From NCBI GenBank assembly GCA_025359965.1, contig JANYDC010000046.1, positions 1 through 64,000 on the forward strand: DNA of 64,000 nt, written 5' to 3'. The notes beneath the pieces are model-generated. The model saw only the letters and a program-made list of their open reading frames with translations. It did not search any database and had not been told where the DNA came from. The stretch comes from Pedosphaera sp. Its GTDB lineage: Bacteria > Verrucomicrobiota > Verrucomicrobiia > Limisphaerales > SXQI01. Below are positions 35,726 to 56,128 of this stretch, one piece after another. The translations under genes were made by a program, and so were the position numbers. How positions within the stretch are numbered: the first letter of the stretch is position 1; every line of letters starts with the position of its first letter.

Positions 35726-37138
35726 ATGAATTTGACTGAATTGCTGGATCGAACCGCCAGCAGTTGGCCCAATAAAATGGCGCTAATTGATGCGGATGCA
35801 GGCGTTTCTTATGCTGATTTGGCTAACCAAAGCAGGATGCTCGCCGCTCAATTGAAGGCGGCTCATTTCTCCGAAGGCTGTAGAATCGGTCTTTGCCTCC
35901 CCAACAGCTGCAACTATATCGCGCTGACTTTCGCCCTGTGGAGAATTGGCGCGGTGGTGGTGCCGATCCCAACCGAAAGTACTGAATCTGAACGCGCGAA
36001 TATCGCCACCATGATGCAGTTGGAGGCGATCCTGAGCCGGAAACCAAGGGCACAAAGCAAGGGGAGCGAGAGGCTGGCGCCGGATGTTTTTATTTCGCAG
36101 TTAAACCCAGAGCCTCCTCCTGACAACCACGGGTTGAACCTCGCATTCATCCGATTCACCTCCGGCACCACTGCCCAGAGCAAGGGTGTTGCTCTTTGCC
36201 ACGAAACCATTCACGAGAGAGTCATTGCAGCAAATCAAGCCCTGCAAATCAGCCCGGCTGACACGGTCATGTGGTGCTTGCCCATGTCCCATCATTTTTT
36301 GGTGACTATTGTGCTTTATATCAGCCAAGGAGCAACCATAGTGCTGGCGCGCCACATTCTTTCGCGCCAGTTTTTGGACTCGGTCAACCGCTGGCAGGGA
36401 ACTGTGTTGTATGCCGCGCCTTTCCATTATTCCTTGCTGGCGCGAGATGGTTCCGAACTGAATCTCGGCTCGGTTCGATTGGCCGTATCCACAACTTGCG
36501 GGCTCACCGAAGCGGTGGCGGACTGTTTTCGTGAACGCTTCGGTTTGCCACTGTCCCAGGCGCTGGGAGTCATTGAACTCGGGTTGGTTTGCGTGAATGT
36601 GGATGAGCCTGTGTCCCGCTGGAATTCAGTTGGACGACCGATGTCTAAATTCGCCGTCAACGTAAAAAACCCCGACAGCAATGGATACGGAGAGATCGAG
36701 GTGTCAGGCCCAGGTTTTTTTGACGCTTACACCCATCCCTGGACTCCACGCGAGCGGTTGATGCCCGACGGATGGTTCAGCACTGGAGATTTTGGACGAG
36801 TTGATGCGGAGGGATACCTGTATTTGGCAGGACGCAAATCCGCGGTGATCAACCTGGCAGGCCGAAAGGTGTTTCCTGAGGAAATCGAGTTTGTATTGAA
36901 CCGCCATCCCTCCGTGAAAGAATCGCGGGCCTACGGAATACTGCACCCACACCTCGGCGAAGTGGTCGAGGCGGAAGTAGTGCTGAAAGATTCTGGCACG
37001 CCGGATGCGTTGCGTGATTTTTGCAGGCTGCATCTCAGCGCCGACAAAGTCCCAAGCTTCTTCCATCCTGTTGCATTTATCAATAAAACCGCGACAACTC
37101 ACAAAATCATGCGTCACCTCTCCCCGCCTGTTGCATGA
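35726..37138 (+). CDS. AMP-dependent acyl-activating enzyme (acyl-CoA/ACP ligase), first gene of polyene operon
   Basis: A 470-residue ANL-superfamily ligase. The ATP-binding loop is IRFTSGTTAQSKG near 142-154. Later motifs are GWFSTGDFGR, YLYLAGRKSAVINLAGRKVFPEEIE (split across the domain hinge) and the C-terminal Lys in THKIM. It probably adenylates an aromatic or fatty acid starter and loads it on the ACP encoded next; aryl-polyene clusters use such a ligase (ApeH type). The stop overlaps the ACP start by ATGA (37135-37138). Substrate choice cannot be read here. Confidence 0.85.
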   Translation: MNLTELLDRTASSWPNKMALIDADAGVSYADLANQSRMLAAQLKAAHFSEGCRIGLCLPNSCNYIALTFALWRIGAVVVPIPTESTESERANIATMMQLEAILSRKPRAQSKGSERLAPDVFISQLNPEPPPDNHGLNLAFIRFTSGTTAQSKGVALCHETIHERVIAANQALQISPADTVMWCLPMSHHFLVTIVLYISQGATIVLARHILSRQFLDSVNRWQGTVLYAAPFHYSLLARDGSELNLGSVRLAVSTTCGLTEAVADCFRERFGLPLSQALGVIELGLVCVNVDEPVSRWNSVGRPMSKFAVNVKNPDSNGYGEIEVSGPGFFDAYTHPWTPRERLMPDGWFSTGDFGRVDAEGYLYLAGRKSAVINLAGRKVFPEEIEFVLNRHPSVKESRAYGILHPHLGEVVEAEVVLKDSGTPDALRDFCRLHLSADKVPSFFHPVAFINKTATTHKIMRHLSPPVA

Positions 37139-37401
37139 ACGAGCCGACCACGATAGAAGCATGCCTTCTGGAATTCCTCAGCAAAGGCGTGTTCAGCGAG
37201 GAAATCCGGGTCACCGTCGACACTGATCTGGTGGAAAACGGTTTTGATTCACTATCACTGGTGTCACTGCTAGTGTTCATCGAAAGAACCTACGGACTGT
37301 GGATACCACAAAATGAGATCAACGAAACGAACCTCAAAAACATCGGTGCCATGGCCGCCATGGTCCTGCGCCGGTTGAATGAAGGCGCGTCTTCCTCATA
37401 A
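37135..37401 (+). CDS. Acyl carrier protein
   Basis: An 88-residue carrier protein. The phosphopantetheine attachment site is Ser39 in GFDSLSLV, and four helices can be drawn around it. It is coupled to the ligase by an ATGA overlap and overlaps the next gene by 23 bases, so it probably carries the starter or growing chain for this operon. A second ACP is encoded in the opposite operon at 52765. Confidence 0.9.
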   Translation: MNEPTTIEACLLEFLSKGVFSEEIRVTVDTDLVENGFDSLSLVSLLVFIERTYGLWIPQNEINETNLKNIGAMAAMVLRRLNEGASSS

Positions 37402-38635
37402 CGGTTGCGACACCCTGATGCTGGGGTTCGATTATGAACTGCGCCGCCGCGGTTTTGCAGGCAATTCATGCCAAATAGTGCTTGGGCTCAAAACCGCCGT
37501 AGCCGCTTCCCTATTGGAACAGCGAATCGCCGACTTGGTGCGCCTGCATCCGATCCTAGCCTCCAAACCGTTGCGTGGATTTAGACCACGTTGGGAACCA
37601 ACCGGCAAAAAGGTCCAGGTTCGTATACACGCCAACGCCCCAAATCTGATGCAAAGTCTCTTCAATGAGCGACTGGATATTCATCAAGGCGAACTCATTC
37701 GATTTGACCTCGTCGGGCAAAGTTTAGTTTTCACATGGGCGCACGCGTTGATGGATGCCAAGAGTGCTGAATATTTCCTGGCAATGGTTGGGGATGTAAA
37801 TGTCCCCGTACCCGAAACTGGCAAGGATTGGTATGCCGAACGCGGCACCAGGGCAGGAAGCCTGCGCGCCAGAGGCAAACAGGCCTGGCTCGAGCTACAC
37901 CGGCTGGAAAAGTTCAAAACCGCCCTGCCCGTTTCGCTCGGCACTTTGCGGCCCCCTAAATCCCCTACCCTCATTTACAAAGTCGTGGCTTTATCCCGTG
38001 AGGACACCGTATGCGCTCGTGCCAATGCCAGCAGGCTGTGCGGATTCCTTGGGGATACGAGCTTTCATCTGGCCGTGACGCTGGTGGAGTTGCATGAGTT
38101 GCAAAGTAGAACCGAACGTCCGAGTGCGAGCTATGTCGTCCCCATCCCGGTAAGCCTGCGACCCAAGGGTTCGCGAGCGCCTCTTTTTTCCAACCAAGTC
38201 ACGATGATGCTCCATCAGTTTCTGCCAGCGGAAGTCTCAACAGTTGAGCGAGCCGTGGCGGCGGTGAAAACCCAGCAGAATGACTTTTTTCGGGACAATC
38301 AGATTGATGCGGGCATCACTCTCGCACACTTTTTCCGGCGACTTCCAATGTGGTTCTATATGCGCATGATCAAACACGAATTGCGCGGGGAAATCTGCTC
38401 CCTCTTTTTTGGGGATACGGCCGCAGTTGACTCGGCCCTTAGGCACTTTATGGGTGCGGCGATTGAAACTTTTGCTCACGTGCCAGCAGTAACACTGCCG
38501 CCGGGCATAGGTGTTGTGTTCCACCGAGTCCGCGAGCAATTGCAGTTTACCCTGGTTTACGCTGAAGGCGTGTTGACCTCCGCTGAGGCGGATACTTTTT
38601 CGAATCGCTTGCGAGATCGGCTACTCAACCCATGA
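37379..38635 (+). CDS. Condensation-domain-like acyltransferase
   Basis: A 418-residue protein with the two-lobe layout of chloramphenicol-acetyltransferase/condensation or WS/DGAT-type acyltransferases. The active-site box is WAHALMDAKS near 119-128, that is HAxxDA where HHxxxDG is usual, so the second His and the Gly are changed. No membrane segment is seen. It may move an acyl chain from ACP to an alcohol or amine. Starts at 37379 or 37418 are both possible; neither has a clear ribosome-binding site, as expected for coupled translation. Family assignment is from general fold features, so it is tentative. Confidence 0.6.
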   Translation: MKARLPHNGCDTLMLGFDYELRRRGFAGNSCQIVLGLKTAVAASLLEQRIADLVRLHPILASKPLRGFRPRWEPTGKKVQVRIHANAPNLMQSLFNERLDIHQGELIRFDLVGQSLVFTWAHALMDAKSAEYFLAMVGDVNVPVPETGKDWYAERGTRAGSLRARGKQAWLELHRLEKFKTALPVSLGTLRPPKSPTLIYKVVALSREDTVCARANASRLCGFLGDTSFHLAVTLVELHELQSRTERPSASYVVPIPVSLRPKGSRAPLFSNQVTMMLHQFLPAEVSTVERAVAAVKTQQNDFFRDNQIDAGITLAHFFRRLPMWFYMRMIKHELRGEICSLFFGDTAAVDSALRHFMGAAIETFAHVPAVTLPPGIGVVFHRVREQLQFTLVYAEGVLTSAEADTFSNRLRDRLLNP

Positions 38636-39768
38636 ATCGGACATTCGACATTGCAGTCGTTGGTGCCGGTGCGGCGGGAATCGCGGCGGCCGTGACTGCG
38701 GCGCGCAGCGGTTGCGCCACCATCCTGCTCGATGAGCGTTCTGCGGCAGGTGGCACAGGCGGATTCAGCGGCCTTACCACACTCTGTGGACTGTACGACG
38801 AGGAAGGAAATTTTCTAAATGAAGGCTTCTCCCGCGAGTTCGCTGGGGCACTGGCAGACCACTCAAATGAAACCAGAAGCACGGCGACCAACTTCCAAGC
38901 ACATTCCTTGAACGTTGTAAAAATGGGCCGAGTCTTGGTGCTTAGATACCAACAAGAGGCATTTCGTGCCGCCGCCGCAGACTTGCTGGGCTCGACTCCT
39001 CATCTAAAAACCAGTTGGTCCACGCCATTGGCCGGAGTGGATGTGGAAGCCAGCCGGATTGTGCGCCTCAACGGCTTTGATGTGGGTGCAGTTATTGATT
39101 GCAGCGGCAGTGCTCAAGTCGCCGGAGCGATCGGTGAGGAGTGCCTGAAGACGGACGAAACCACGCAGTCACCAGCGATCCTTTTTTTATTGCTCAACGT
39201 ACAGCACAGCTTTACTACGCCCGCTGCCACAGCTCAAGTATTGCTACCCCTCGCACGGGCCGGATTCCCCCCTCTGAGCTTCCAAAGCGATCTGCTGCAG
39301 GACAGAGTCACAGTCAAATTCACAGGACGGCCAGACCAGGTCAAAGATGTGATCGCCTTTCTACAGAAAAATATCAGCGGCTTTGAGAACTGCCACAGTC
39401 CGCAATCTGAATTCAAACCAACGCAACGTTCAGGGCGAATGATTATCGGCCGTTACCTGCTAACCGGGCAGGATGTGCTGTCAGCAGGCAAATTTCCTGA
39501 TGCAGTTGCCCGATGCGCCTGGCCCATTGAACAATGGGGAGCCGATGGCACGGCTAGTTTTAGATACCTGGCGGCCGGAACGCACTACGAAATCCCAGCA
39601 CGATCATTGCAGTCCAGGCAGGTTCCCAATCTTTTCATGGCTGGAAAAACCATCAGCGCCGACACTGACGCCATCGGCAGTGCGAGAGTGATGGGTTGCT
39701 GCCTCGCAACCGGGGAGGCTGCAGCTGTTTTGGCAGCAAATTTTCTCGACAAAAAATTCCACGGATGA
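38632..39768 (+). CDS. FAD-dependent oxidoreductase
   Basis: A 378-residue flavoprotein with the dinucleotide fold VVGAGAAGIAAA at 9-20 and the ATILLDERSAAGGTGG region that contacts FAD. The C-terminal FAD motif is NLFMAGKTISADTDAIGSARVMG. It resembles the FAD-dependent oxidoreductases of the PF12831/thiazole-biosynthesis-like group. It may desaturate or hydroxylate the starter or chain. It overlaps both neighbours by ATGA, so it is a fixed part of the operon, but such an enzyme is not a core part of known aryl-polyene sets. Confidence 0.75.
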   Translation: MNRTFDIAVVGAGAAGIAAAVTAARSGCATILLDERSAAGGTGGFSGLTTLCGLYDEEGNFLNEGFSREFAGALADHSNETRSTATNFQAHSLNVVKMGRVLVLRYQQEAFRAAAADLLGSTPHLKTSWSTPLAGVDVEASRIVRLNGFDVGAVIDCSGSAQVAGAIGEECLKTDETTQSPAILFLLLNVQHSFTTPAATAQVLLPLARAGFPPLSFQSDLLQDRVTVKFTGRPDQVKDVIAFLQKNISGFENCHSPQSEFKPTQRSGRMIIGRYLLTGQDVLSAGKFPDAVARCAWPIEQWGADGTASFRYLAAGTHYEIPARSLQSRQVPNLFMAGKTISADTDAIGSARVMGCCLATGEAAAVLAANFLDKKFHG

Positions 39769-40982
39769 CACTCGATTTCGAAAAACATTGGGAGAAAACC
39801 TTTCGCTATGCGAAAGCCAACTCCCCCTATTATCGTGAACTATTCCGGTCATCAAGTGACATGCCTAGGTTGGAAGATGTGCCGATGGTCGACAAAAAGA
39901 TTTTGTCAGAGCGCAACTTGGAGTTCCTGTCTGCGCCCAGGGAACGTATTGCTGAAATTGTCACGACGAGCGGCACAACCGGCAAGCCTTTGCTTTGGAT
40001 GCTCACCGATGGCGACTTGAAACGGCTTGCCCTAAACGAAAAACTTTCCTTCGAATGCGTAGGCTTGGCAGCGCACGACACCGTTCTGCTGGCCGTGGCA
40101 ATGGACCGTTGCTTCCTTGCCGGACTGGCCTACTGGCAGGGACTGCGCGAACTAGGTTGTGCGTCTGTCCGAGTCGGCCCGCCATCCGCCACGCTCATTT
40201 TGGAAATGATCGACCGCATCCAACCCACAGCAATTATAGCTGTGCCCTCGTTTTTACGGGTCATCGCCGAAAAAGCGGCCGAGGCTAAATACGATTTGAA
40301 GAACAGCCCGATCAGGAAAACCGTTTGCATCGGTGAGCCCGTGAGGGACGCATCATTCAATCTCAACACTTCGGGGCGCGCCATTGAAGCGGCTTGGGGA
40401 GCACGGGCTTATTCCACCTATGGAGTTACAGAACTGGCAAACTCGTTATGCGAATGTGACGCGGGTCAGGGTGGACATCTGCATGATGCAATGTTGCACA
40501 TCGAAATTGTTGATGACGATGGCAAGCACCTTCCCGACGGCGTGGTTGGCGAGGTTGTGGCGACGACTTTTGGCGTTGAGGCCATGCCCGTGATCCGTTA
40601 CCGCACTGGCGATTGCGCGGCTCTCTTTCGCAGTCCGTGCGCCTGCGGCCGCACGACGCCCCGACTGGGCCCAATCGTCGGACGAAAGAATCAAAAACTA
40701 AAATTCAAGGGTGCCTCGTTGTTCCCGTCTTCTTTGCAAACGGTGTTGGATGAATTCAATGGCGTGGAAAGTTATGTCATTGTGGTACGCATGGAGGCTG
40801 AACTTTCCGATTCAATCGAAGTGTTGGTTCAAGGCCAGGTTGCGGTGGAGATGCTGCGTGAGGCGATTCAGGCGAGGACGAAAATTGCTCCTAAGGTTCG
40901 CCATGCGTCGCGCGAGGAAATCGAAGCACTGCAAATGCCACCGCAGGCGCGTAAACGGAATACATTTGTTGATCTCCGATGA
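39765..40982 (+). CDS. PaaK-like phenylacetate-CoA ligase family enzyme
   Basis: A 405-residue adenylating enzyme from ATG 39765 (ATGA overlap with the oxidoreductase stop). Motifs are VTTSGTTGKP near 63-72, YGVTELA, YRTGDCA, and the Cys-rich PCACGRT typical of PaaK-type ligases. The C-terminal Lys lies in ARKRNTF. PaaK relatives activate aryl acids, so this could prepare an aromatic acid starter. It is the second acyl-activating enzyme in the same operon, which suggests two different acids are activated. Confidence 0.82.
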   Translation: MTLDFEKHWEKTFRYAKANSPYYRELFRSSSDMPRLEDVPMVDKKILSERNLEFLSAPRERIAEIVTTSGTTGKPLLWMLTDGDLKRLALNEKLSFECVGLAAHDTVLLAVAMDRCFLAGLAYWQGLRELGCASVRVGPPSATLILEMIDRIQPTAIIAVPSFLRVIAEKAAEAKYDLKNSPIRKTVCIGEPVRDASFNLNTSGRAIEAAWGARAYSTYGVTELANSLCECDAGQGGHLHDAMLHIEIVDDDGKHLPDGVVGEVVATTFGVEAMPVIRYRTGDCAALFRSPCACGRTTPRLGPIVGRKNQKLKFKGASLFPSSLQTVLDEFNGVESYVIVVRMEAELSDSIEVLVQGQVAVEMLREAIQARTKIAPKVRHASREEIEALQMPPQARKRNTFVDLR

Positions 40983-42115
40983 AAACTTGCGTCATTATTC
41001 CCTGCTTTAATCACGGCGGAACAGTGGCGAAGGTCGCTCGCGAAGCATTGGCATATTGTCCGGTCATCATCGTGGACGACGGGTCAACGGTGCCCCTGCC
41101 CGGGATGCCTGGATGCACTTTCGTTCGGTTGGAGCATAACTCAGGGAAAGGTGCCGCGCTGAGTGCTGGCTTTCGACGCGCGGGGGAACTTGGTTTCACT
41201 CATGCCATCACGATGGACTCGGATGGGCAGCACTTCGCCGAGGACCTGCCTAAGTTTCTGGCAAAGATGGCAACTCAGCCGGATGCGCTCGTGGTGGGCG
41301 TGCGGGATTTTTACTCCGCCGGATGCCCCACTCATCGACGCCGTTCCAACGCTGTATCATCATTCTGGTTCCGCGTGGAAACCGGCGTGCAACTCGGCGA
41401 CACTCAATGCGGATTTCGCTGTTACCCGATTGCGCTAACGCAACGCATCAAAGCGACATCAGGCCGCTATGCTTTTGAGATGGAAATCATGGTGCGCTCG
41501 TCATGGACAGGCACTCCAATTGTTTCCGTACCGGTGAAATGCACTTACGAACCTGAGCAAATCAGGCAATCGCATTTTCGCCCTGTTCGCGATCTGGCTC
41601 ATATCACGCTCATGAACATTCGCCTGGTGCTGCAATCGTGGGTTGTGCCGCTGGCGCTGCGTGTGGCTTGGTCCGAAGGTCGCAACCCCTCGTTGGGCGC
41701 TGCCGCCAGCGAGTTCTTTTCCGAGCATGCGCATGATCCATGGTCGATGTCGCTGGCGGTGGGGCTCGGATTGTTTTTTGGAATCGTGCCTATTTACGGG
41801 CTTCAATTAGTGATCGCGCTGGTTGTGGCGCATCGTCTGGGCTTGAACAAAGCCATCACGGCGGTGGCTAGCAACATTTCCATTCCGCCAATGATTCCTA
41901 TCATCATTTTCGGGTCATTGATGTTGGGGCACTGGCTTTTTACAGGAGAGGTAATCGCATTATCACTCAAGGAAATAACTCGGGCACACGCTGCCAAGTA
42001 TTTCTGGGAATGGTTGGCGGGCAGCATGGCCCTTGCTGTGATTGTGAGCATAACCGGAATCATCGTCTTCTACGCCGTTGCGAAATTGACGCATCGAAGG
42101 TGGACCAAAGCATGA
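40979..42115 (+). CDS. GT2 glycosyltransferase fused to DUF2062 membrane domain
   Basis: A 378-residue protein. The N-terminal GT-A domain has VDDGS (32-36) and the DSDGQH motif (80-85) expected for metal and nucleotide-sugar binding. Residues about 235-375 are a DUF2062 domain with three to four membrane segments (GLFFGIVPIYGLQL, IPPMIPIIIFG). Such enzymes transfer sugars to polyprenyl phosphate or membrane lipids; GT2/DUF2062 genes are common in aryl-polyene-type clusters. It is coupled by ATGA overlaps on both sides. Confidence 0.85.
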   Translation: MKTCVIIPCFNHGGTVAKVAREALAYCPVIIVDDGSTVPLPGMPGCTFVRLEHNSGKGAALSAGFRRAGELGFTHAITMDSDGQHFAEDLPKFLAKMATQPDALVVGVRDFYSAGCPTHRRRSNAVSSFWFRVETGVQLGDTQCGFRCYPIALTQRIKATSGRYAFEMEIMVRSSWTGTPIVSVPVKCTYEPEQIRQSHFRPVRDLAHITLMNIRLVLQSWVVPLALRVAWSEGRNPSLGAAASEFFSEHAHDPWSMSLAVGLGLFFGIVPIYGLQLVIALVVAHRLGLNKAITAVASNISIPPMIPIIIFGSLMLGHWLFTGEVIALSLKEITRAHAAKYFWEWLAGSMALAVIVSITGIIVFYAVAKLTHRRWTKA

Positions 42116-45100
42116 ATTTGGGCCTCTACACCCGTCTCTACCTGTGGTTGGTGGCGCACCGCCGCTGGGTGCTCGGCGTGACGGTGTTGCTGACGGCGGT
42201 CAGCGTGGCGGTTTCCCTGCGGATGGATTTGGATGAGGACATACTCACCACACTTCCTCAGAACGACAAATTGGTGGATGAATATCGGTACGCTCTTCGA
42301 AAGTTTCGCCAAATTGACCGGGTTTACATTGACGTTGGCATCGCCTCAGGTGAAACAGAATCACTCGGAGCTGCAGCAGACATGGTTTTCGGAGTGCTAT
42401 CCACCAACACTGCCTACGGACGGATTCTTTATCATGTCGAGACGGGCGGGGCGCAAAAGGTAATAAACTACCTGACCGGCGCACTGCCAAATTTGTTCAC
42501 TGAGGAGGATGGACCTACTCTGGCATCGAAGCTTGAACCAGCAACTGTGCGCGCACACCTAACCGATATGCGCCGCAAGCTGGCGGGGCCGGAAGGCATG
42601 GTGTTGAAAGATGTCGTTGCGGCTGATCCAGTGGGCATGACCTCCCTGGTAGTGGCGAAAGTCATGCCGTTGCAAACTGGCTTTGGCGACGCCCAGATAG
42701 TGGAAAGCCGTATCACGAGTGGGGATGGGCGCCATATTTTGATGATGGCCGAGCCAAAACTCCCATCGTCCAATTCAGGGGCCAGCCAGGTGCTTGTGCA
42801 AGACCTCATCCGTTTGGCGCGCAGTGTTGAGTCTCAGTTTCCCGGCGTGCATGTTGCCATTACGGGCGGTCACCGTATGGCGGTGGATAACGCGACCATC
42901 ATCAAGAGTGACGCGACCCGCTGCATTTCAATCGGCATGGCTGGGATGCTGGCACTTTATCTGGTGTCCTACCGGCGGCGATGGCTGGCCGGCATAACAT
43001 TTCTGCCTTCGCTGTTCAGCACGCTGGTGGCAGGCGCCGTCCTTGCAGTGACCCAGAGGCATTTGTCAGCCATCTCCCTGGGATTTGCCACCATCGCACT
43101 CGGTGTCACGGTGGATTACGCAATTTATATCATTTATCACCTCGAAGACGCGTCAGCCCGAGACCGGCGAACAGTCGGAACGAATCTGAGTCAGTTGGTG
43201 TTTCCCATCATAGTGGGTGCGTTGACCACGATCGCCGCATTTCTGGTAATGATGACCTCCCCCATGCGAGGCTACCAACAACTGGGGCTTTTTGGAGTGG
43301 TCGGCGTGGTACTTTCCGTGGCATTCGCTTTGATAATCCTGCCATTGCTCGTGCCAATGGTAAAAACGAAAGCCCAGCCGCCTTTGTGGCTGACTCAGTG
43401 GCTTGAAAATTTCTTTAAATGGCAATCGCGACGACGCTTCTGGCTTCTGGCTTTGATAGGCATTATAAGCCTGATTACTGGTTTCGGTGTTCGGCGGGTT
43501 AGGTTTGAAGGCGACATCGCCAAACTCAATGGCATCACGGAATCGACTCGGACCGATGATGCGTTAATTACCAAAACATGGGGCAGCGCATTCGGAATGA
43601 CTTTGATTGTGGCACGGGGGGCAACTACTGAGGAGGCATTGGCTCAAAATGATCGTGTCGCTGAGGTCTTAAGTCACGCCACAAATGTTTCCGCCTTTTA
43701 TTCGCTGTCATCCATTTGCCCTTCGAAGACAACTCAGGAGGAAAATTTCCGTCGCTGGCAGCGGTTTTGGACGCCTACGAGAAAAGAAAGACTGCGTGAG
43801 ACGTTGCAGCAAGTCGGCGAGGAACTGGGATTCCGCGAGGGCGCGTTTGAGACATTTTGGGAACGTCTGCGAGGTCAGCAGTCCCTTATCACAATAGCAA
43901 TGTTCCATGGAACACCGCTCGAGCAGGCATTGAGCGAAAGAGTCGCCGTCGGTGAGGGCGACAATGCAGTGAGCACCCTGGTTAAGTTGAAGCGTCGAGA
44001 AATCGCAGGAGACCTTCGGCAAATACTGCCTGAGACCATCGTGCTCGATCAAAAGGGATTCGCTGATCACATCGCGAAAATGGCGAAGAAAGGGCTGGGG
44101 CATTTCGCCTTGTGGACCAGCATTGCGGTGGCCGGGATTCTTTATCTGACACTTGCGTCAGCGGAGCTGGTTTTTGCAACGCTGCTGCCGCTGGCATTCG
44201 GACTACTTTGGACGTTTGGAGCGATGGGCTGGCTGGGTGTGCCCATTGATCTGATGAACAGCATCTTCGTCATCTTCATCATCGGTGTAGGAGAGGACTA
44301 CAGCGTTTTCTTCGTGGCAAGCAAGCTGGACGGATGGCGAGGAAAACCACCGTTGGCTGCGGTTACAACGGCATCAGTGCTTATATCGGCTCTGACGACT
44401 ATTTTTGGGTTTGGAGTGCTCATCATCGCTAAACACCCGGTGCTTTTCTCCATGGGTGTCACCGTATTGTTGGGAATGACATTCACATTCATTGCCACGC
44501 TGATCCTCACTCCGATGTGCATGGATCTACTGCTCTTCAAAAAATCACCACGTCGCGCCCCGCGATGGTGGCATTTGATTTCAAGCCTCTGGGTGCTGCT
44601 ACATCTGGGCGCCTGCCAGGTATTTCTTTATTACGTGTTGAGGCCGATGTTGTTCATCATTTCCCCGCGTTCGGCAGTCCACAGGCTGCGCCGCGCCACT
44701 CGTTGGTTGGCGCGTGGCGTGGTTAATGGCTTGCCCTTTGGAACACTAAAATTTCAGAATATCAGTTCAGCCACGTTTTCAGACCCAGCCATCGTCATTA
44801 GCAACCACCAATCAGCGGTGGATGTCATGCTGGTGGTTAGCCTGCCTGGGGATATAAGGCAAACGGCTAAGAAACGGGTCTTCGACGCCCCCATGCTCGG
44901 CCTGGGCTGCAAAATCCTTGGACATGTCATGGTCGAACCCGACGATCCGCAGACAACACTGCGCCGGTGTCGCGATGTGCTGGCAAGCGGTGCTTCGGTG
45001 CATTTTTATCCGGAGGGCACACGCTCCCGTGATGGTTTTGTGAGGCGCTTCCATCGGGGGGCATTTGAGCTGGCTATTGAACTGAGGCAGGACATTCTGC

Positions 45101-46615: not shown

Positions 46616-46619
46616 CGGC

Positions 46620-48649: not shown

Positions 48650-49146
48650 GGTCTTCCCTTGAGTGTTTCGTCAAACATCTCAGGGGGCTGGACGCCAGGC
48701 TTGGTATCCACAATCTGTAAATCCAACTTATAACGGCGATTCTTAATCACGAAATGAGAGGGACTCAATTGCGTTGCATGGCAATCCGCACCACTTGCAT
48801 CGCCGAACAAACACTGCAGGTCTGCCGTCACAAATCGACGGATCCATTCCGGCTTAAGCGCCCGGCTTGAACGCATGACAAACGTGGAACCATCAGATTT
48901 GACCAACACGTCGGCCAGGACGCTTCCCAAATTCTCGGTCACCACGAGGCGCTTGCCACCAGTGGCGCTGGTAGCCAGATATCCCGTGAGCATAAACTCC
49001 CGACCCATGGCTGTGAGCACCGCCCGTTGAGTCACCAATGCCTCGACAAAAGGAAGGACTTTCCTGGCGGGAATAGTGCTGGTCGGCGCTGTGGCGCAAC
49101 CGGCCAAAAGCAAAGTCAACAATGGCAGAAGATATTTAAGGAGCAT
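48646..49146 (-). CDS. DUF3261-type lipoprotein
   Basis: A 166-residue protein with a lipobox (LLAGC, Cys17) and a beta-rich body that resembles the DUF3261 lipoproteins found in aryl-polyene clusters. There it probably sits at the outer membrane and takes over the product from the LolA-like carrier, like LolB for lipoproteins. It overlaps both neighbours (11 bases with LolA, 4 with the dehydratase). Confidence 0.7.
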   Translation of the reverse strand: MLLKYLLPLLTLLLAGCATAPTSTIPARKVLPFVEALVTQRAVLTAMGREFMLTGYLATSATGGKRLVVTENLGSVLADVLVKSDGSTFVMRSSRALKPEWIRRFVTADLQCLFGDASGADCHATQLSPSHFVIKNRRYKLDLQIVDTKPGVQPPEMFDETLKGRP

Positions 49147-49828
49147 TGCTTAAAGTCGCCTTAATGGCAGCAACATCCAAAGGTTTGGCCTGATCAAACG
49201 TGCCGACGGGAAACTTCACATTCCGCTGTTCCCTGCGGAAAATAATCCGTGTCAGATCACCGTTGGGTTCATTCATCACTACCTCGGTCGTGCCCGAAAA
49301 ATCCGGCTTCATCTTCACTTCGAGGCACGAGAGAACTGAACGCACGTTTTCATCTTTGGGGACCATCGTCAAAACCGCCAATGCACCCGTTGCGACTGAA
49401 ATGGTAAAATCGCTTGTGAGGGCATCGAGCTTGCCTTGATTCATTAAGGTCATCTGGTCCATGACGCGCTTCAACATTTGTGGGAAGCCGAGCTTTAATT
49501 TTTTCCAATCTCCATCAACACGCTCAAACTGTGCGACGGATTTATGATTGCCCAAAAGAATGGATTGGTAGGGCTCGGTCGTCTCCCAACGGATTTGGTC
49601 AGGACGGTCAATCAGCATGACACCTTCGCTGCTCAGTGGCTGGGCGAACAATTTCAACTGCCGTTCCTGGGTGAATTCCAGATACACCGAACTTAGCGAG
49701 GACATCTTGCGCTGAAGTTCCTGCAAAATCGGAAGAGCATTGGACGAGGACTGCAACAGCGGTGACTCGGCGGCTGTGGACAAGATGATGGCAGCCATCA
49801 TCGCTCCGATAATAAACAGTGTTTTCAT
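49136..49828 (-). CDS. LolA-like outer-membrane carrier protein
   Basis: A 230-residue periplasmic protein with a signal peptide (1-20) and the LolA fold pattern: LQELQRKMSSLSSVYLEFTQERQ at the start in helix-strand order, then SEGVMLIDRPDQIRWE with the conserved RW. The family ferries lipids or lipoproteins across the periplasm, and aryl-polyene clusters carry a dedicated copy. Its start overlaps the deacetylase stop by ATGA (49825-49828). Confidence 0.85.
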   Translation of the reverse strand: MKTLFIIGAMMAAIILSTAAESPLLQSSSNALPILQELQRKMSSLSSVYLEFTQERQLKLFAQPLSSEGVMLIDRPDQIRWETTEPYQSILLGNHKSVAQFERVDGDWKKLKLGFPQMLKRVMDQMTLMNQGKLDALTSDFTISVATGALAVLTMVPKDENVRSVLSCLEVKMKPDFSGTTEVVMNEPNGDLTRIIFRREQRNVKFPVGTFDQAKPLDVAAIKATLSNAP

Positions 49829-50577
49829 TTCAGCAATTGATCCAAGCGTACCACCTCATACTCAAGCGTGCGCAACCTTTCCAAAAGCATTTTAACCGTG
49901 GTCACGAGACGTTCGTCAGGAATATTTCCATCGTGAAGCAAAATGATCGCACCGGGTTTCAGCCTGCGTGTGATGCGGTTCACAATTCGTTCCGAAGAGG
50001 TCAGTTGGGTGTCCAATCCACCGGCACCCCAACCGACCACGGTCAACCCCAGATCTCTGGCCACTCGGAATACCCGCGGGTTGGTCAATCCGATGGGCGG
50101 ACGAAAAAACCGGGGCAGAATGCCTGTGGCTTTCTGGATTGCTTGCTGCGCCCGTCGTAAATCATCGCGGAGACGGATGACGGAAAAAACATTGGTCAGA
50201 TTGCTGTGCTCGTACGAATGATTTTCAAGCAAGTGTCCCTCGCTCACGATCCAGGCCGCCAACTCTGGGTTCTCCGCGACTCGACGGCCGACTCCGAAAA
50301 AAGCAGCCTTTATACCCAGGTTGCGAAGAAGCTGGAGCAGTTTCGGTGTGGATCGTGCATCAGGCCCATCATCAAAAGTCAGAGCCACACAGCGCCGGGA
50401 GCTTTTCCCCTGACAAACCATTGGGCCAAAAAAGCGCATCTGAGGGATGGCTGAACCCAGTCCGATCAAAATGAGCAGAATCAAAATCACGACTCTGGCA
50501 ACACCCCAATGGCCAGAACCGAACGCCAGGATAGCCAGTGGAAGCGCGATCAGGGTTGCAAAATTAAATCGAGTCAT
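49825..50577 (-). CDS. Membrane-anchored polysaccharide deacetylase (NodB-type)
   Basis: A 250-residue protein from ATG 50577; the long in-frame extension upstream is antisense-like and overlaps the ketosynthase. Two hydrophobic segments lie in residues 5-45. The NodB domain has TFDDGPD near 66-72, HSYEHSN, FRPPIG and LLHDG, the metal and acid/base boxes of carbohydrate esterase family 4. It probably removes N-acetyl groups from an envelope sugar and would expose an amine. It overlaps the ketosynthase stop by 14 bases. Confidence 0.85.
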   Translation of the reverse strand: MTRFNFATLIALPLAILAFGSGHWGVARVVILILLILIGLGSAIPQMRFFGPMVCQGKSSRRCVALTFDDGPDARSTPKLLQLLRNLGIKAAFFGVGRRVAENPELAAWIVSEGHLLENHSYEHSNLTNVFSVIRLRDDLRRAQQAIQKATGILPRFFRPPIGLTNPRVFRVARDLGLTVVGWGAGGLDTQLTSSERIVNRITRRLKPGAIILLHDGNIPDERLVTTVKMLLERLRTLEYEVVRLDQLLK

Positions 50578-52765
50578 GGCTTTCCAGACAGCATACCGCC
50601 TTGGCGCCTCGCGGCGATAGCGTGTAAAGAAGCACGCCTCGATGCCCCTGCTGCACAAGGCCGACTGCCACGGAAAATCCGAATGCCGACGCGGCGTGGA
50701 ATTCTCCGCACGTTTGCTTATAGGTTTTATGCTCCAATGATCTCCCGGCGCGCGCTGACAAAGCATCCAGGATCGCCCTATAATGAACATCCAATGCAGA
50801 CCAGCCACCTGCACCGCTCAACACCATATCAACCCGGGTAAGATCAACCGAGGTTGCTATCCAGTCGGCCTCCCGTTCCGTATCAAATGGCCGATGATAC
50901 CGGCCCAACCGGACTGCCGTCACCCTTGCGAGCGATTCGGGCTTCCCCCCACGGATTAGACACGCAACCACGGCACCTTCGCCGGGTTTAGTTTGCTCGG
51001 TCCAGTGCCCCCATCGCTTTCCAATGGCCAACGGATATTTATTCAGCTCATCCACCGCGCCAACAAGTGCTATGTCCGTCTCGTCGGCGGCAATTTGATG
51101 GAAGCCCTGCCAAAGGGCGCATTCAAAGGAAATTTCCCCTGCCGTTGGTGCTGAATTCATGGCCCGTGCGCCAAGATCGATTGCAATTTGTGCGGCGGCG
51201 GCGTTGTGGACCGAGCCGGAAAACCGTGATGGCATCGGCGCAGGATTGTTCTCTGAAAAATAATTCTCAATAAACTTGGCACCCTCGTCGAGACAGCCAA
51301 AACCAGTGCCCATCAACACAGCAACCCTCTGTGCGGGATCGGGATTGCAGCTTTGCCGCGCAGCAATTAGTGCCATCTGGACCAGGCGACTGGACCGGCG
51401 TCGTTGGTTGGGGGATAACAAGGCCGCACCGGCCAGCGCACCGCAACTGTGTGCAGCCACCGCCCCTGAAGGGAGCGGAGATTCAATCTCGTAGAGTGTG
51501 TCAACCCCAGGATCAACCACGCCAACTCCCGCAATAGATACTTGAACCGTTTGTGGGGCACGGGTAGTCACTGGGGCATCCGGTTGGGAAAAAATAAGCA
51601 CGGCATTGTTGCCGCCGAACCCGAATGAGTTGCTCATCACATGAGTCAATGACAGACCTCGCAACACGGTGACGGGCTCGATCCCGACGGCGGGGTCAAA
51701 AATGGAAAACCCTAGATTGGGTGGGATTTCCTGGTGCAGCAATGCTTCAACGCAAACCACCGCTTCAATCGCGCCGCTGGCCGCAAGGGCGTGGCCAAAA
51801 AATCGTTTGGTGCTGGTTACTGGTGGCACAAGCTCGCCAAAAACTGTCTTTAACGCTTTCGACTCCGCGAGATCATTGTCACGAGTACCGGTGCCATGGG
51901 CATTTACGTAGTGAATGTCGGAGGGTTTCAAACCGGCCCGTCGCAAGGCAGCGCCCATGGCTGCGACTGCTCCGGCGCCTTCCGGATGTGGGGCTGTGGC
52001 ATGGTGAGCATCGCAGCTCGCGCCCCAACCGCTCAATCGAGCCAGAATTATCGCCCCCCTCCTGCGCGCAAACTCCTCGGACTCAAGCACGAGAACTCCG
52101 GCACCCTCGCCCATGGTTGTTCCAGCCCGTGTCGCATCAAAGGGCCGACAGCCCATTTCATCGACAAGTAGCAGCGAGTGAAACCCCGCCCAGGTCATTT
52201 GCGACAGGGAATCAGCTCCACCTGCAAGCACCACATCTGCTTCGCCCGACTGGATCATTTCCGCGGCGGTGGCAATGGCCAGCGCGCCGGACGAACACGC
52301 GGTGGAAACAGCCATGCTCGGACCCAGTAAACCGTATTCCTCCGCGATCAAATCGACCACGGAAACGCATTCGTGGAAACGGGTGGGAAGCGGGCGCATT
52401 TTGCCGCGCCTGACTAAATTGCTGAGGAAATGTTCACTATTAAACGAACCACCCACCGAACACCCCAGCACCACGCCGGCGCGTTCCGAGCAATCAACAA
52501 AATCAATTCCGGCGGCTTCAACCGCCTCACGCGCAGCCAGCCAGCCGAGCTGATCACTGCGGGAACCTCGAGCGGGCGCGCCAAGAGCTGTCAAATCGGT
52601 GTGCGCCTCGCCTGCAAGAACCCGACTGTAACGAGGTGACGGAAAAAGCGTGAGCGGTTTGAGTCCGCTTCTTCCCGCTCTTATGGCCTCCCAAGTCGCT
52701 TCCACGCCAACGCCCGTCGCCGCGATGATGCCAAGACCCGTTACAACTGGGGAGCACGCAACCAC
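50564..52765 (-). CDS. Ketosynthase fused to a non-catalytic ketosynthase-like domain
   Basis: A 733-residue protein starting with GTG 52765 (one-base overlap with the ACP stop). Residues 1-395 are a complete beta-ketoacyl-ACP synthase: Cys157 (TACSSG), His290 (NAHGTGT) and His325 (FFGHALAASG). Residues about 405-733 repeat the fold, but the three catalytic positions read APTAG, SGAGG and CGEFH, so Cys and both His are lost. This resembles a KS with a chain-length-factor-like half on the same chain. It probably extends the polyene on the ACP next to it. Confidence 0.85.
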   Translation of the reverse strand: MVACSPVVTGLGIIAATGVGVEATWEAIRAGRSGLKPLTLFPSPRYSRVLAGEAHTDLTALGAPARGSRSDQLGWLAAREAVEAAGIDFVDCSERAGVVLGCSVGGSFNSEHFLSNLVRRGKMRPLPTRFHECVSVVDLIAEEYGLLGPSMAVSTACSSGALAIATAAEMIQSGEADVVLAGGADSLSQMTWAGFHSLLLVDEMGCRPFDATRAGTTMGEGAGVLVLESEEFARRRGAIILARLSGWGASCDAHHATAPHPEGAGAVAAMGAALRRAGLKPSDIHYVNAHGTGTRDNDLAESKALKTVFGELVPPVTSTKRFFGHALAASGAIEAVVCVEALLHQEIPPNLGFSIFDPAVGIEPVTVLRGLSLTHVMSNSFGFGGNNAVLIFSQPDAPVTTRAPQTVQVSIAGVGVVDPGVDTLYEIESPLPSGAVAAHSCGALAGAALLSPNQRRRSSRLVQMALIAARQSCNPDPAQRVAVLMGTGFGCLDEGAKFIENYFSENNPAPMPSRFSGSVHNAAAAQIAIDLGARAMNSAPTAGEISFECALWQGFHQIAADETDIALVGAVDELNKYPLAIGKRWGHWTEQTKPGEGAVVACLIRGGKPESLARVTAVRLGRYHRPFDTEREADWIATSVDLTRVDMVLSGAGGWSALDVHYRAILDALSARAGRSLEHKTYKQTCGEFHAASAFGFSVAVGLVQQGHRGVLLYTLSPRGAKAVCCLESHDSI

Positions 52766-53022
52766 TAGGCAGCCCGTTTGGCTTGAATGAAGCTGGCGAG
52801 AGCCCGGATGGACTGGAATGCCGGACGACCAGCTTCCAAGTCTTTAATGACAATTCCGTAACTATTTTCCAGCATCGCAACCAGTTCCAGAGCATCAATT
52901 GAATCCAAATCCAGCCCCGCACCAAACAATGGGGCATCGTCATCAATTTGTTCAGGTTGCACCCCCTCCAACTGCAACGTTTTAATGATGCGGACTTTCA
53001 ACTCATTGGCTAATGATTCCAT
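52765..53022 (-). CDS. Acyl carrier protein
   Basis: An 85-residue ACP with the phosphopantetheine site Ser41 in LDLDSIDALEL. It is set between the chain-length-factor-like gene (6 bases upstream) and the ketosynthase fusion gene (overlap TAGTG). It is probably the ACP that carries the chain during extension. Confidence 0.92.
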   Translation of the reverse strand: MESLANELKVRIIKTLQLEGVQPEQIDDDAPLFGAGLDLDSIDALELVAMLENSYGIVIKDLEAGRPAFQSIRALASFIQAKRAA

Positions 53023-53028
53023 AGAAAC

Positions 53029-53613
53029 TTAACTCGCAAGGTCTTTCGGGCACAATACTCGGCACATTTTCTCGATGTCACGATCATTCTCCCCCAACTC
53101 ACGAACTCCATTGCCGCCGAGCCGTAGGAGGATCGCTCCCGCAAGGGCGGCAGCCGGAGAGTTAATCAGCCCGGCAATGGCCGGTGTCACAACATTGTAA
53201 AAAACACAAAGGCAGGCCTGCGCTTCACCGCGCCTCAGAAGATCGCACGCTTCGGGTATTATCGAACCCTCCCCTGTCAGGCACAAATTCGGACCGGTCA
53301 ATCGGTGACGAATTGCAATCTCTCCAATAGCCGAACTGGGCAAAGTGTAAGCAAACAATGTGGGACTGGGTCCGCCTGCATTGTCGCGGCCCCGCCAAAA
53401 ATCAAAATCGGTGGCAAGGGATCCAGCGCGCGCTGCCAGGCAGATGCCGATTAACTCACGCGGCAGCAAATCAAAATTGACGCCCAGAGCCTCCACCGCA
53501 ACCAGCGCCAATTGACTCGCCAGATCGAGACGACCAAAGCGCGTGCCAAGACGCGCCATGCGCACATCCTCTTCTCCCACCATGCTGGCCGCTGCAATGA
53601 CTATTTTATCCAT
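53029..53613 (-). CDS. Small ketosynthase-like protein, probable chain-length factor
   Basis: A 194-residue protein from ATG 53613, within the last 8 bases of the ketosynthase gene. It looks like the N-terminal half of a ketosynthase (the PF13723 type called beta-ketoacyl synthase chain length factor in aryl-polyene clusters). The place of the active Cys reads LTGEGS, so it should not be catalytic. Known aryl-polyene synthases need such a partner (ApeC with ApeO) to set chain length. Confidence 0.75.
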   Translation of the reverse strand: MDKIVIAAASMVGEEDVRMARLGTRFGRLDLASQLALVAVEALGVNFDLLPRELIGICLAARAGSLATDFDFWRGRDNAGGPSPTLFAYTLPSSAIGEIAIRHRLTGPNLCLTGEGSIIPEACDLLRRGEAQACLCVFYNVVTPAIAGLINSPAAALAGAILLRLGGNGVRELGENDRDIEKMCRVLCPKDLAS

Positions 53614-54778
53614 GACCCAAGATGAGTGCACCATTGATGCCACCAAAACCGGTGTTTAACTTCAATACTACATTGAGACAATCCACCACATGGGGATCCC
53701 TCATGAGACCGGCCGGCGTTCCTTCCGCAGGTTCAATCAGCCGGGGTGTCCCAGGCAGGAATCGCCCCTCCATCGCAAGGATGCACACAATAGTTTCCAC
53801 CACTCCCGCCGCGCCCAGTGTGTGGCCCAGCATGCCTTTTGCGGCACTAACAGGCGGGCATTTCTCACCAAACACCGTGCGCAATGCCATTGATTCCATT
53901 GCGTCGTTATATGGCGTGCCTGTGCCGTGCGCGTTCACGTAACCAATGTCGGGTGATTGCAATCCCGATGCGTTCAAAGCCCTTCGAATGGCGAGGGCCA
54001 GCCCCGATCCATCCCGTGACGGTCCGGTAAGATGATTTGCGTCGTTGCTCCCGCCCCAGCCCAGCATGGAGATGGCGGATGAAGGGGCCAGGTCGCCACG
54101 CACAAGCACAATGGCCGCGCCCGCCTCGCCGGGGCTTAACCCACATCGATTGCGATCAAATGGACGACAGCCATTCGGATCAATGGCCTTCAGCGCGGTG
54201 AACCCTGCCACCACAAATGACGACAGATGATCCACCCCCACCACCAACACGGCATCAGCATCGCCGCGCAGAATCAATTTCGCCCCCTGCTGCAGGGCCA
54301 CAAGCCCAGACACGCAAGCAACCGACACGCATTGAACAGGGCCACTCGCTCCTTGACCGGCGGCAAGATCTACCGCCAGAGCATATCCCTGCAAATGACG
54401 GCGGGCATCATCGGAACAGGGTTCATTTTCGGCAAGCTGCTCCAACGCGGCGATGTTTGCTTTCGTCGTCGAAAGCACCAGTCCAATGCGAGCAGCGGGA
54501 ATCGAGGACAAAACGTTCCGTGCCTCATCGCAAGCCTCACCCAACGCTGCTACCGCCAGATGAAAAGCAGGATCGCCCGAAGGAAAATCATTCGGTGGAA
54601 CCGCTCCGACAATACTTGACTGAAATCGGGGCGAATCGAAACGGGCGTTCGGTTTTAGTCCGCTGGAATTGGTTTTCAGCGCTGCCCTCAATGCATCCAC
54701 GCCACGGCCGACAGCGGTGATGGCACCGCATCCGATGATGGCTACTCCCGGGCGGGAAAACTTGGACACCTCAGACAT
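53606..54778 (-). CDS. Beta-ketoacyl-ACP synthase (KAS II-like)
   Basis: A 390-residue ketosynthase with the full triad: Cys155 (SVACVSG), His284 (NAHGTGT) and His319 (MLGHTLGAAG). Length and motifs are typical of FabF-like elongating enzymes. Its 3' end overlaps the chain-length-factor-like gene by 8 bases, which suggests the two are made together and act as a pair. Its start overlaps the upstream dehydratase-like gene by 8 bases. Confidence 0.9.
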   Translation of the reverse strand: MSEVSKFSRPGVAIIGCGAITAVGRGVDALRAALKTNSSGLKPNARFDSPRFQSSIVGAVPPNDFPSGDPAFHLAVAALGEACDEARNVLSSIPAARIGLVLSTTKANIAALEQLAENEPCSDDARRHLQGYALAVDLAAGQGASGPVQCVSVACVSGLVALQQGAKLILRGDADAVLVVGVDHLSSFVVAGFTALKAIDPNGCRPFDRNRCGLSPGEAGAAIVLVRGDLAPSSAISMLGWGGSNDANHLTGPSRDGSGLALAIRRALNASGLQSPDIGYVNAHGTGTPYNDAMESMALRTVFGEKCPPVSAAKGMLGHTLGAAGVVETIVCILAMEGRFLPGTPRLIEPAEGTPAGLMRDPHVVDCLNVVLKLNTGFGGINGALILGHG

Positions 54779-55181
54779 AAAGCATTAACTCCCCGCGCGC
54801 GATCTGTTCGCCCCTGCAAACAATTCTGCCTGAAATCTTGATCATCGAACCCAGCCGCTTTAATTCGCGAACCTCAATCTGCAGAACCTCCTCCGCCGAC
54901 GGACGAGACCGGATCTGAAAATCATTCACGGCCACGAGCATGCCGACCGGCGCGGCGCCGGCTTGTCCGCTGTTTTTTGCGCGCAGCCCCTGGGCCGCAG
55001 CCACAGTCTGCGCAACGCATTCGATCAATGCACCTTCAATGACCTGCCCTTCTTCAACGGCAAAATGGTCCGAACTAAATCGGGCGGTCGCGGTGGCGGT
55101 CATATCCGTGCAGTCCGTCAACGCGTCAATGAAACGCATGGGGGTTCGATGCGGAATTAGCGACTCGATGGGTTCGGACAT
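54771..55181 (-). CDS. Hotdog-fold 3-hydroxyacyl-ACP dehydratase-like protein (ApeP type)
   Basis: A 136-residue protein from ATG 55181 (MSEPIESLIPHRTPM). The opening box LIPHRTPMRFID and the helix GALIECVAQTVAAAQG match the short dehydratase-like proteins of aryl-polyene clusters. His11 and Glu54 are the likely active-site residues. Starting at 55229 would add a 16-residue piece that only overlaps the upstream gene. It overlaps the LpxL-like gene by 25 bases. Confidence 0.75.
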   Translation of the reverse strand: MSEPIESLIPHRTPMRFIDALTDCTDMTATATARFSSDHFAVEEGQVIEGALIECVAQTVAAAQGLRAKNSGQAGAAPVGMLVAVNDFQIRSRPSAEEVLQIEVRELKRLGSMIKISGRIVCRGEQIARGELMLYV

Positions 55182-56128
55182 AGCTCGCTGGCGGGTTTGG
55201 GGATGGTCGGGGCTGCGGGTTCGTTCCAAAATGGGAAGAAATTATACCACTGGAGTGGGTCCCTCTTGAGCGTTGATTCCAAGTTTTGCGCGAAAGTGGC
55301 GGCGCAATTTTTCAAATAGTCATCCCGCAGATGATGAGCGGGCATTTTGGGAAACTGGGCTGGAAACCCAAAAAAACGATAATGCCCTCCCGGCTCACGC
55401 AGGTTAAAAACCGTGACCAGGGGCGCGTTGGCAATTGAGGCAAGCACATACGCGCCGATGGGAAAAGACGCGGTTCCGTTTAAAAACGGAGCTTCCTTTG
55501 AAGGACTTCCGTAAGCGCGGTCGCCCAGCATGGCCACAATCTCGCCGCGCCGCAAAGCCGCCAGAAGGGGGATGGCATCCGCCGGCGATCCCGTCAATGG
55601 CAACAGACGAAATTTTGCTCTTGAGGATTGGCTCAGGAGAGCTCGAATATCGGCCGATTCGTTATCAAAACCGGTGACATTGATGGGCACGTCAAGATGG
55701 GTCAGTAATTGCCCTGCTGCTTCCCAATTGCCAACGTGAGCCGTAACCAACAAGGCACCACGGCCAAGCCCCAACGCTTTGTGCACATGATGCTCCTCCT
55801 CAAAGGAAAACGAAAAATATTTCTGTTTGCCCGCGAGGATTGCTGTGCGGTCGATGATGGCTCTTCCAAAGGAAAGAAAGTGCCGAAACACCAGCCACCG
55901 CCGTTTCCACCATGGCACATTGCCAAAAACGCGGCGGTGGTAATCCATCGTGGCTGCCACATCCGGGGACATGAAGGAAAAATAGACCGCCACTGGAACG
56001 ATCAGGAGGTACGTCACTCGCAAACCAAGCACACGCAAAACCGTGATAAAAAACCAGATCCCCGAACGTCCACCCCGAAGTTTGCCAGTGCCGGACCAAT
56101 GAGGAGTCTTTGAAGGGTTTTCCGCCAT
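55157..56128 (-). CDS. LpxL/HtrB-like lysophospholipid acyltransferase
   Basis: A 323-residue inner-membrane acyltransferase, first gene of the minus-strand operon. One or two membrane segments lie at 22-52; the HxxxxE box is His131-Glu136 (HVGNWE), and GDRAYGS fits the second conserved block. LpxL-like enzymes add acyl chains to lipid A or similar lipids, and relatives occur in aryl-polyene clusters. A region of about 146 bases with no gene separates it from the divergent cytochrome gene, and both promoters should be there. Confidence 0.85.
   Translation of the reverse strand: MAENPSKTPHWSGTGKLRGGRSGIWFFITVLRVLGLRVTYLLIVPVAVYFSFMSPDVAATMDYHRRVFGNVPWWKRRWLVFRHFLSFGRAIIDRTAILAGKQKYFSFSFEEEHHVHKALGLGRGALLVTAHVGNWEAAGQLLTHLDVPINVTGFDNESADIRALLSQSSRAKFRLLPLTGSPADAIPLLAALRRGEIVAMLGDRAYGSPSKEAPFLNGTASFPIGAYVLASIANAPLVTVFNLREPGGHYRFFGFPAQFPKMPAHHLRDDYLKNCAATFAQNLESTLKRDPLQWYNFFPFWNEPAAPTIPKPASELCPNPSSR

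Follow-up and report, generated by a model that had tools for sequence, protein, structure and literature searches.

A flexirubin-type aryl-polyene gene cluster with a linked acyl-transfer module and no ketoreductase of its own in a Pedosphaera genome

The first 64,000 nucleotides of contig JANYDC010000046.1 from Pedosphaera sp. (Verrucomicrobiota; GenBank assembly GCA_025359965.1), hereafter the window, contain a block of 19 genes (positions 35726–56128) that is an aryl-polyene/flexirubin-type biosynthetic cluster without its own ketoreductase and holds most of the genes of such a pathway; flexirubins are yellow-orange pigment lipids. The genes form two convergent operons, seven on the forward strand (35726–45942) and 12 on the reverse strand (56128–45914), which meet tail to tail with a 29-nt overlap (forward end 45942, reverse end 45914). 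All 19 frames are open, and neighbouring genes mostly overlap by a few bases. A reading of the cluster made without database searches (the sequence-only reading) had proposed two convergent operons with aryl-polyene/flexirubin-type parts, and this is borne out by the open frames, their strands and matches to Pfam and NCBIfam models. These models confirm two AMP-dependent ligases, two acyl carrier proteins (ACPs), ketosynthases (KSs), a PF13723 chain-length-factor (CLF) part, two FabZ/ApeI-type dehydratases, PlsC and LpxL acyltransferases, a GT2-DUF2062 glycosyltransferase, an MMPL exporter and LolA, leaving DUF3261 as the one weakly supported entry in the earlier parts list. Five further members are a polysaccharide deacetylase, a C45/AAT autoproteolytic acyltransferase, an FAD oxidoreductase, a condensation-like protein and a KS-like fragment.

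The forward operon opens with a four-gene module encoding an AMP-dependent acyl ligase (AMPlig1, 35726–37138; PF00501, 171.9 bits; 45% identity to a homologue in a Desulfobacterales metagenome-assembled genome (MAG), locus L138), an acyl carrier protein (ACP1, 37135–37401; PF00550, 29.9 bits), a 418-aa acyltransferase resembling the condensation/PapA superfamily (u418, 37379–38635), recognised through a profile of its homologues and bearing an HxxxD motif (H122/D126), and an FAD-dependent oxidoreductase (38632–39768; PF12831, 199.9 bits). The module is followed by a FlxY-like aryl-acid CoA ligase (39765–40982, likely start at 39765 checked; NF053551 FlxY, 412 bits; cut-off 520), a flxT-like GT2-DUF2062 glycosyltransferase (40979–42115; PF00535 and PF09835; 35% identity to flxT) and a flxU-like fusion of an MMPL exporter, a PlsC acyltransferase and a methyltransferase (42112–45942, likely start at 42112; PF03176, PF01553 and PF13649; 26% identity to flxU over its length). 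Here and below, flx identities refer to queries from the Chitinophaga pinensis YS-16 locus (L127).

The reverse operon begins with an LpxL-type, flxE-like acyltransferase (55157–56128; PF03279, 81.9 bits; 30% identity), followed by an ApeP/FlxF-like dehydratase (54771–55181, likely start at 55181; FabZ model 2.7e-8, below cut-off; 24%), the flxI-like ketosynthase KS1 (53606–54778; PF00109/PF02801; 39%), a flxL-like KS fragment (53029–53613, likely start at 53613; a weak PF00109 match of 2.3e-3; 33%), the flxM-like ACP2 (52765–53022; PF00550, 34.9 bits; 49% to the C. pinensis locus) and a ketosynthase (residues 1–394) fused to a chain-length factor (50564–52765; PF00109/PF02801 and PF13723; 42% to flxN and 27% to flxO). 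Downstream lie a flxP-like polysaccharide deacetylase (49825–50577, likely start at 50577 checked; PF01522, 117.1 bits; 34%), a LolA-like chaperone (49136–49828; PF03548, 48.4 bits; LolA2_flexi, 80.9 bits against a cut-off of 125), a lipoprotein that is possibly DUF3261/LolB-like (48646–49146), a flxS-like, ApeI-like dehydratase (48275–48649; PF22818, 48.4 bits; 25%), a C45/AAT autoproteolytic acyltransferase/hydrolase with a TPR-like tail, probably FlxW (46620–48290; PF03417, 76.1 bits; NF040521, 193.5 bits, above cut-off; 38% to the C. pinensis gene), and a PlsC-type acyltransferase (45914–46615; PF01553, 60.3 bits). For the lipoprotein, DUF3261 was matched by one of 12 orthologues (8.7e-4) and not by the window protein itself, and a structure model of its 166 residues (mean predicted local distance difference test (pLDDT) score of 55, too poor) gave no Foldseek match at E ≤ 0.001.

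Both fusions are real, with the KS-CLF protein spanning 733 aa and the MMPL-PlsC-methyltransferase protein 1276 aa from its likely start. KS-CLF is the only PF13723 match in the genome (39.2 bits; cut-off 25). Alignments show the catalytic Cys-His-His residues intact in KS1 and in the KS part of the fusion. The Cys and His residues are missing from the CLF part, and the catalytic Cys is missing from the 194-aa KS-like fragment. Ordinary fatty-acid synthesis was rejected as a role for the cluster genes, as a separate FabG-FabF pair occurs elsewhere in the genome.

The sequence-only reading had found neither a ketoreductase nor a thioesterase in the block, and both absences hold. A hidden Markov model built from three short-chain dehydrogenases/reductases (SDRs) of the genome detected no SDR-type frame in the window at E ≤ 1e-2, the 14 FabG-model matches in the genome are all on contigs other than the window's, and Pfam identified no thioesterase domain among the cluster's 19 proteins.

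Related clusters were sought in 320 genomes of the order. The KS-CLF fusion, at 60–79% identity, occurs in 16 of them, source genome included (in three it is in pieces on different contigs), and a more distant form, termed type B, occurs in four further genomes (G130, G073, G089 and G248). The three remaining congeneric genomes of the set have no PF13723 match. The cluster is therefore patchy, being present in 16 of 320 genomes from several families, a distribution that suggests it has been transferred or often lost. Genome papers reportedly describe aryl-polyene or flexirubin clusters in Verrucomicrobia identified with antiSMASH-type tools, and the literature searches on aryl polyenes or flexirubins and Verrucomicrobia turned up no description of verrucomicrobial pigment chemistry.

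Among the 16 genomes, four carry an ApeQ/FlxB-type ketoreductase directly before LpxL. In G233 this SDR belongs to the same operon, and its orthologues in G077, G108 and G107 (75–76% identical) occupy the same position. No such reductase was matched anywhere in the other 12 genomes, the source genome among them; when the relatives' dedicated reductase was searched in the source genome, the best match was FabG (49%). The corresponding spot here is intact and empty, extending from 56128 to the next gene at 56275. The stretch before LpxL contains no SDR in ten of the 12 (G000, G021, G115, G227, G110, G309, G220, G106, G230 and G111) and is off-contig in G042 and G219. A tree of 30 reductases unites these four with 99/99 support and places them with the enzymes of G036 and of nine named aryl-polyene-type loci; the aryl-polyene-type reductases stand apart from 14 FabGs, with a program warning of long branches. 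The loop from the PGF motif to the RFG-type motif spans 24 residues in 13 of the 14 aryl-polyene-type reductases (25 in one) and 27 in all 14 FabGs; the ApeQ lid is reported as three residues shorter in PMC8041823. The residue reported for ApeQ (Leu185 for FabG Phe183), taken here to lie in the PGF motif, is Phe in 12 of the 14 aryl-polyene-type reductases, Leu in one and Ile in one, and these counts speak against Leu185 as an ApeQ hallmark or against that placement.

A cluster tree of six concatenated proteins requires at least three changes of reductase state among the 16 genomes, a count that leaves out type B and comes from a tree in which several deep branches are unresolved and gain is not separable from loss. 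As four of the 16 genomes carry a dedicated reductase immediately before LpxL, its absence here is best read as patchy loss and not as proof of new chemistry, and the shared position and orthology of the reductase in all four favour loss. The sequence-only reading had allowed that a dedicated ketoreductase beside the cluster in relatives would weaken its case for a variant pathway, and in these four genomes, at least, that is what is seen. Two substitutes were considered and rejected. Another reductase in the pre-LpxL gap of reductase-less relatives was discarded because the conserved proteins there, as far as the flxV-like gene, are WG-repeat and HEAT-repeat proteins, and the cluster's own FAD oxidoreductase was discarded because it is also present in the reductase-bearing G233.

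The WG-repeat proteins have signal-peptide-like starts and lie just before the LpxL or the reductase gene (L233:6725–7699, L063:18562–19554 and L235:4556–5557). HEAT-repeat proteins recur near LpxL in relatives, and one adjoins the ammonia-lyase locus of the source genome described below (L248:2725–3315). In addition, the type-B clusters of G130 (L112:3421–4167) and G248 (L068:315–1100) have, within or near the cluster, an SDR with a full-length FabG-type lid, which may represent an independent answer to a lost reductase.

As delimited by the block, the cluster is incomplete. The genome's only PF00221 protein, an aromatic ammonia-lyase (519 bits; 33% identity to the C-terminal piece of flxA), is encoded on another contig (C37:9004–10428, locus L248). 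Close to it are a flavin amine-oxidase-type, flxV-like protein (a weak similarity to flxV, 1.5e-7 over 54 aa), then a Trp-halogenase-type FAD protein (50.5% identity to flxK) and an O-methyltransferase (51.6% to flxJ). Orthologues of the lyase (77–86% identity) occur in 14 of the 15 same-type relatives and in three of the four type-B genomes. Because this lyase and the flxK-, flxJ- and flxV-like genes, as a whole or in part, lie beside LpxL and the main operon in five same-type relatives (G309, L225; G227, L057/L058; G021, L012; G107, L233; G108, L232), the pathway of the source genome occupies two or more loci. Both the ammonia-lyase and the FlxY-type ligase that mark a flexirubin pathway are present as putative suppliers of the aryl starter, and the lyase carries a TAL-like (tyrosine ammonia-lyase-like) motif. 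A sorbosone-dehydrogenase-type protein with a heme-binding domain lies directly upstream of the reverse operon in the window (56275–58032), and an 858-aa frame related to it adjoins the C37 locus.

The four-gene module at the head of the forward operon precedes the FlxY-like ligase and GT2 genes here and in G233 and G115, and its gene order is the same where seen in G230, G110 and G021. The 418-aa protein alone has no Pfam match, and its structure model is too poor to use (mean pLDDT 34). A profile of 20 homologues, comprising 19 genome matches and the L138 protein, with fragments and some distant paralogues left out, matched solved condensation-type domains of nonribosomal peptide synthetases (best 2.2e-5) and a mycobacterial phthiocerol dimycocerosate (PDIM) acyltransferase (2e-4). 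Nine of the 20 homologues match the Condensation family individually (best 8e-4), and H122 and D126 of the HxxxD motif are invariant in all 20. Orthologues of the acyltransferase, defined by at least 42% identity (16 genomes, with 18 genomes bearing 25–31% paralogues left out), are present in 14 of the 16 cluster genomes (all save G042 and G220) and in two of the 304 others (G217 and G109), a co-occurrence with a Fisher p of 1.4e-20 uncorrected for kinship. The same four genes also lie beside a reductase and KS-CLF cluster in the Desulfobacterales MAG. The module probably makes or adds a tail that is not dialkylresorcinol. A variant end product, which the sequence-only reading had derived from fused and extra enzymes, is therefore plausible because of this added module and not because of the missing reductase; as a lead to a new product the module is the more promising feature, and it suggests an uncharacterised tail within a pigment family that is among the commonest in bacteria.

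A distant version of the module occurs at L236, L237 and L238 (in G204, G264 and G122), where no ketosynthases were seen. It comprises a paralogue of the acyltransferase, a B12-binding radical SAM protein, an FAD oxidoreductase and an AMP ligase (Pfam assignments at L236 and L237, both with an ACP), and at L237 an amine-oxidase-type flavoprotein comes next.

Taken together, the explanation that is favoured, with reasonable but far from full confidence, is a flexirubin-type aryl-polyene lipid pathway spread over two loci, in which reduction takes place in trans, likeliest by FabG, and the module adds an acyl group that replaces dialkylresorcinol. Gene content, gene order, conservation and the missing reductase are observed; the enzyme steps, and the product itself, are predictions. 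The C37 ammonia-lyase would provide 4-coumarate (or cinnamate), which the FlxY-like ligase would activate. Chain extension by malonyl units would fall to KS1 with the KS-like fragment, together with the fused KS-CLF and ACP2, and the conjugated double bonds would come from the two dehydratases. As the FlxB/ApeQ-type reductase appears to have been lost from the head of the operon, beta-keto reduction would occur in trans, most likely through FabG. The GT2, deacetylase, PlsC, LpxL and C45 enzymes may join the polyene acid to a glycolipid of the envelope, which LolA, the MMPL exporter and the lipoprotein would carry outward, and the AMP ligase-ACP1-acyltransferase-FAD module would make and attach a further acyl group instead of dialkylresorcinol. 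A broader proposal, that verrucomicrobial flexirubin-type pathways have repeatedly lost the ketoreductase to FabG and that a module-made ester or amide in place of the dialkylresorcinol ester defines a new class of aryl-polyene lipid, is put forward tentatively, as an idea with rather less than an even chance.

FabG probably serves as the stand-in ketoreductase, as the sequence-only reading had offered for one of its two options, and it is the simplest and likeliest candidate. One FabG (C39:89069–89782, beside a FabF) scores above the curated cut-off. By bit score, the FabF of this genome comes closest to those of named loci from Verrucomicrobiia (57% identity), Spartobacteria (56%) and Akkermansia (54%), and a MAG labelled Proteobacteria matches them in identity at a lower score. 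Several points weigh against this reading of the pathway. FabG of Acinetobacter baumannii gave almost negligible aryl polyene in vitro where ApeQ worked (PMC8041823), and at least 12 further SDRs in the genome stay eligible as the reductase. The specificity of ammonia-lyases is described as unpredictable from sequence (PMC3992019), the FlxY- and LolA-like proteins score below their NCBIfam cut-offs, and kinship may contribute to the co-occurrence of acyltransferase and cluster. The assembly is moreover a draft, 92% complete in 162 contigs, so that a reductase could lie on missing DNA. A different SDR, or the FlxV-like flavoprotein, might also reduce the beta-keto group, which seems unlikely. 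The remaining 13 of the 14 FabG-model matches fall below the cut-off, and FlxV of C. pinensis has itself been put forward as a candidate reductase (PMC3992019), but the FlxV-like protein has a flavin amine-oxidase fold and not an SDR fold, and G107 and G108 have both it and the dedicated reductase.

That a dedicated reductase sits on DNA missing from the draft, apart from the main cluster as the ammonia-lyase block does, is improbable. The incompleteness and fragmentation of the assembly would permit it, and the ammonia-lyase is indeed on another contig here and in several relatives; however, 11 other genomes with this cluster type also lack the reductase, and all four known copies lie directly before LpxL, at the very spot that is intact and empty here. 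Least credible, and given only a slight chance, is a pathway in decay or one making a short, less reduced product, one that has lost flxC- and flxH-like genes as well as the reductase and so forms no full polyene. The block does lack a thioesterase and a third ketosynthase, and the reductase is patchy, but the frames are all open and tightly overlapping, the KS active sites are intact, and KS-CLF is conserved at 60–79% identity in 15 other genomes from several families. If instead the favoured pathway, with reduction in trans, works without FlxB/ApeQ, FabG can drive aryl-polyene synthesis, contrary to one published in vitro test, and the natural clusters with and without the reductase make the FabG/ApeQ question directly testable.

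Comparison with known systems was made against 80 listed named loci, which are not a census and include L127. The fusions are not unusual, because the same frames recur there: KS-CLF as one frame at least seven times, MMPL-PlsC at least 13 times and MMPL-PlsC-methyltransferase at least three times, excluding false flags from ordinary FabF or CLF-only frames. Fusions were accordingly rejected as a sign of new chemistry. Nor is the deacetylase new, because the flx and arc clusters have previously been described with such genes (PMC3992019 and PMC3949708). The arcuflavin system of Azoarcus sp. BH72, as presented in PMC3949708, likewise has polyene genes over several loci and shares deacetylase, LolA, AMP ligase and exporter genes, but it has the reductase arcH, a XanB2-type starter enzyme and dar genes, whereas here an ammonia-lyase is found and no dar genes were seen, though no search for darA was made. 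The ape clusters of Escherichia coli CFT073, Xenorhabdus and Acinetobacter, as described in PMC8253772 and PMC8041823, share a KS with a PF13723 CLF, two dehydratases, ACPs, LolA, an exporter of the RND (resistance-nodulation-division) type, acyltransferases and a methyltransferase. In contrast to these, the present cluster includes no ApeQ reductase and, among its 19 proteins, no ApeK thioesterase, and has a deacetylase, a C45 enzyme and a FlxY-type ligase.

At L127, the C. pinensis genes run in the order ammonia-lyase, reductase, KS, LpxL, dehydratase, unassigned protein, thioesterase, KS, methyltransferase and halogenase-like FAD enzyme, then KS-like fragment, ACP, KS, CLF, deacetylase, LolA, unassigned protein, dehydratase, GT2, MMPL, amine-oxidase-like flavoprotein and C45 enzyme. 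This order fits flxA to flxW as given in PMC3992019, with letters for single genes inferred from order; in C. pinensis, the TAL and FlxY have been assayed, and FlxY ligates CoA to 4-coumarate (same source). Queries with flxG, flxH, flxQ and flxR had no window match at 1e-4, and flxB and flxC matched only FabG/FabF or other ketosynthases; the flxB (FlxB-type) reductase, flxC ketosynthase and flxH thioesterase were not found here. The KS and CLF are fused, the genes occupy two convergent operons and a second locus, the AMP ligase-ACP-acyltransferase-FAD module is extra, and Pfam detected no β-ketoacyl-ACP synthase III (KAS III) domain in the cluster, the genome's two PF08541 matches being on contigs C110 and C123 (type III polyketide synthase (PKS)-like). 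On C123 (L249:5341–8249), genes for a methyltransferase and an FAD-binding protein come after the type III PKS-like gene, an organisation resembling that of phenolic-lipid operons such as srsABC. What is shared with C. pinensis is the order LpxL, dehydratase and KS1, then KS-like fragment, ACP, KS, CLF, deacetylase and LolA, then dehydratase, GT2 and MMPL, together with the C45 enzyme and FlxY, and the flxA-, flxJ- and flxK-like genes are present as well, elsewhere in the source genome. In its gene order and envelope-attachment set the cluster is collinear with Bacteroidota flx loci, and, judged by these features, it follows the flx cluster of C. pinensis more closely than the E. coli ape cluster that the sequence-only reading had used as its yardstick, with the deacetylase, C45 enzyme, KS-like fragment and FlxY all fitting the former better.

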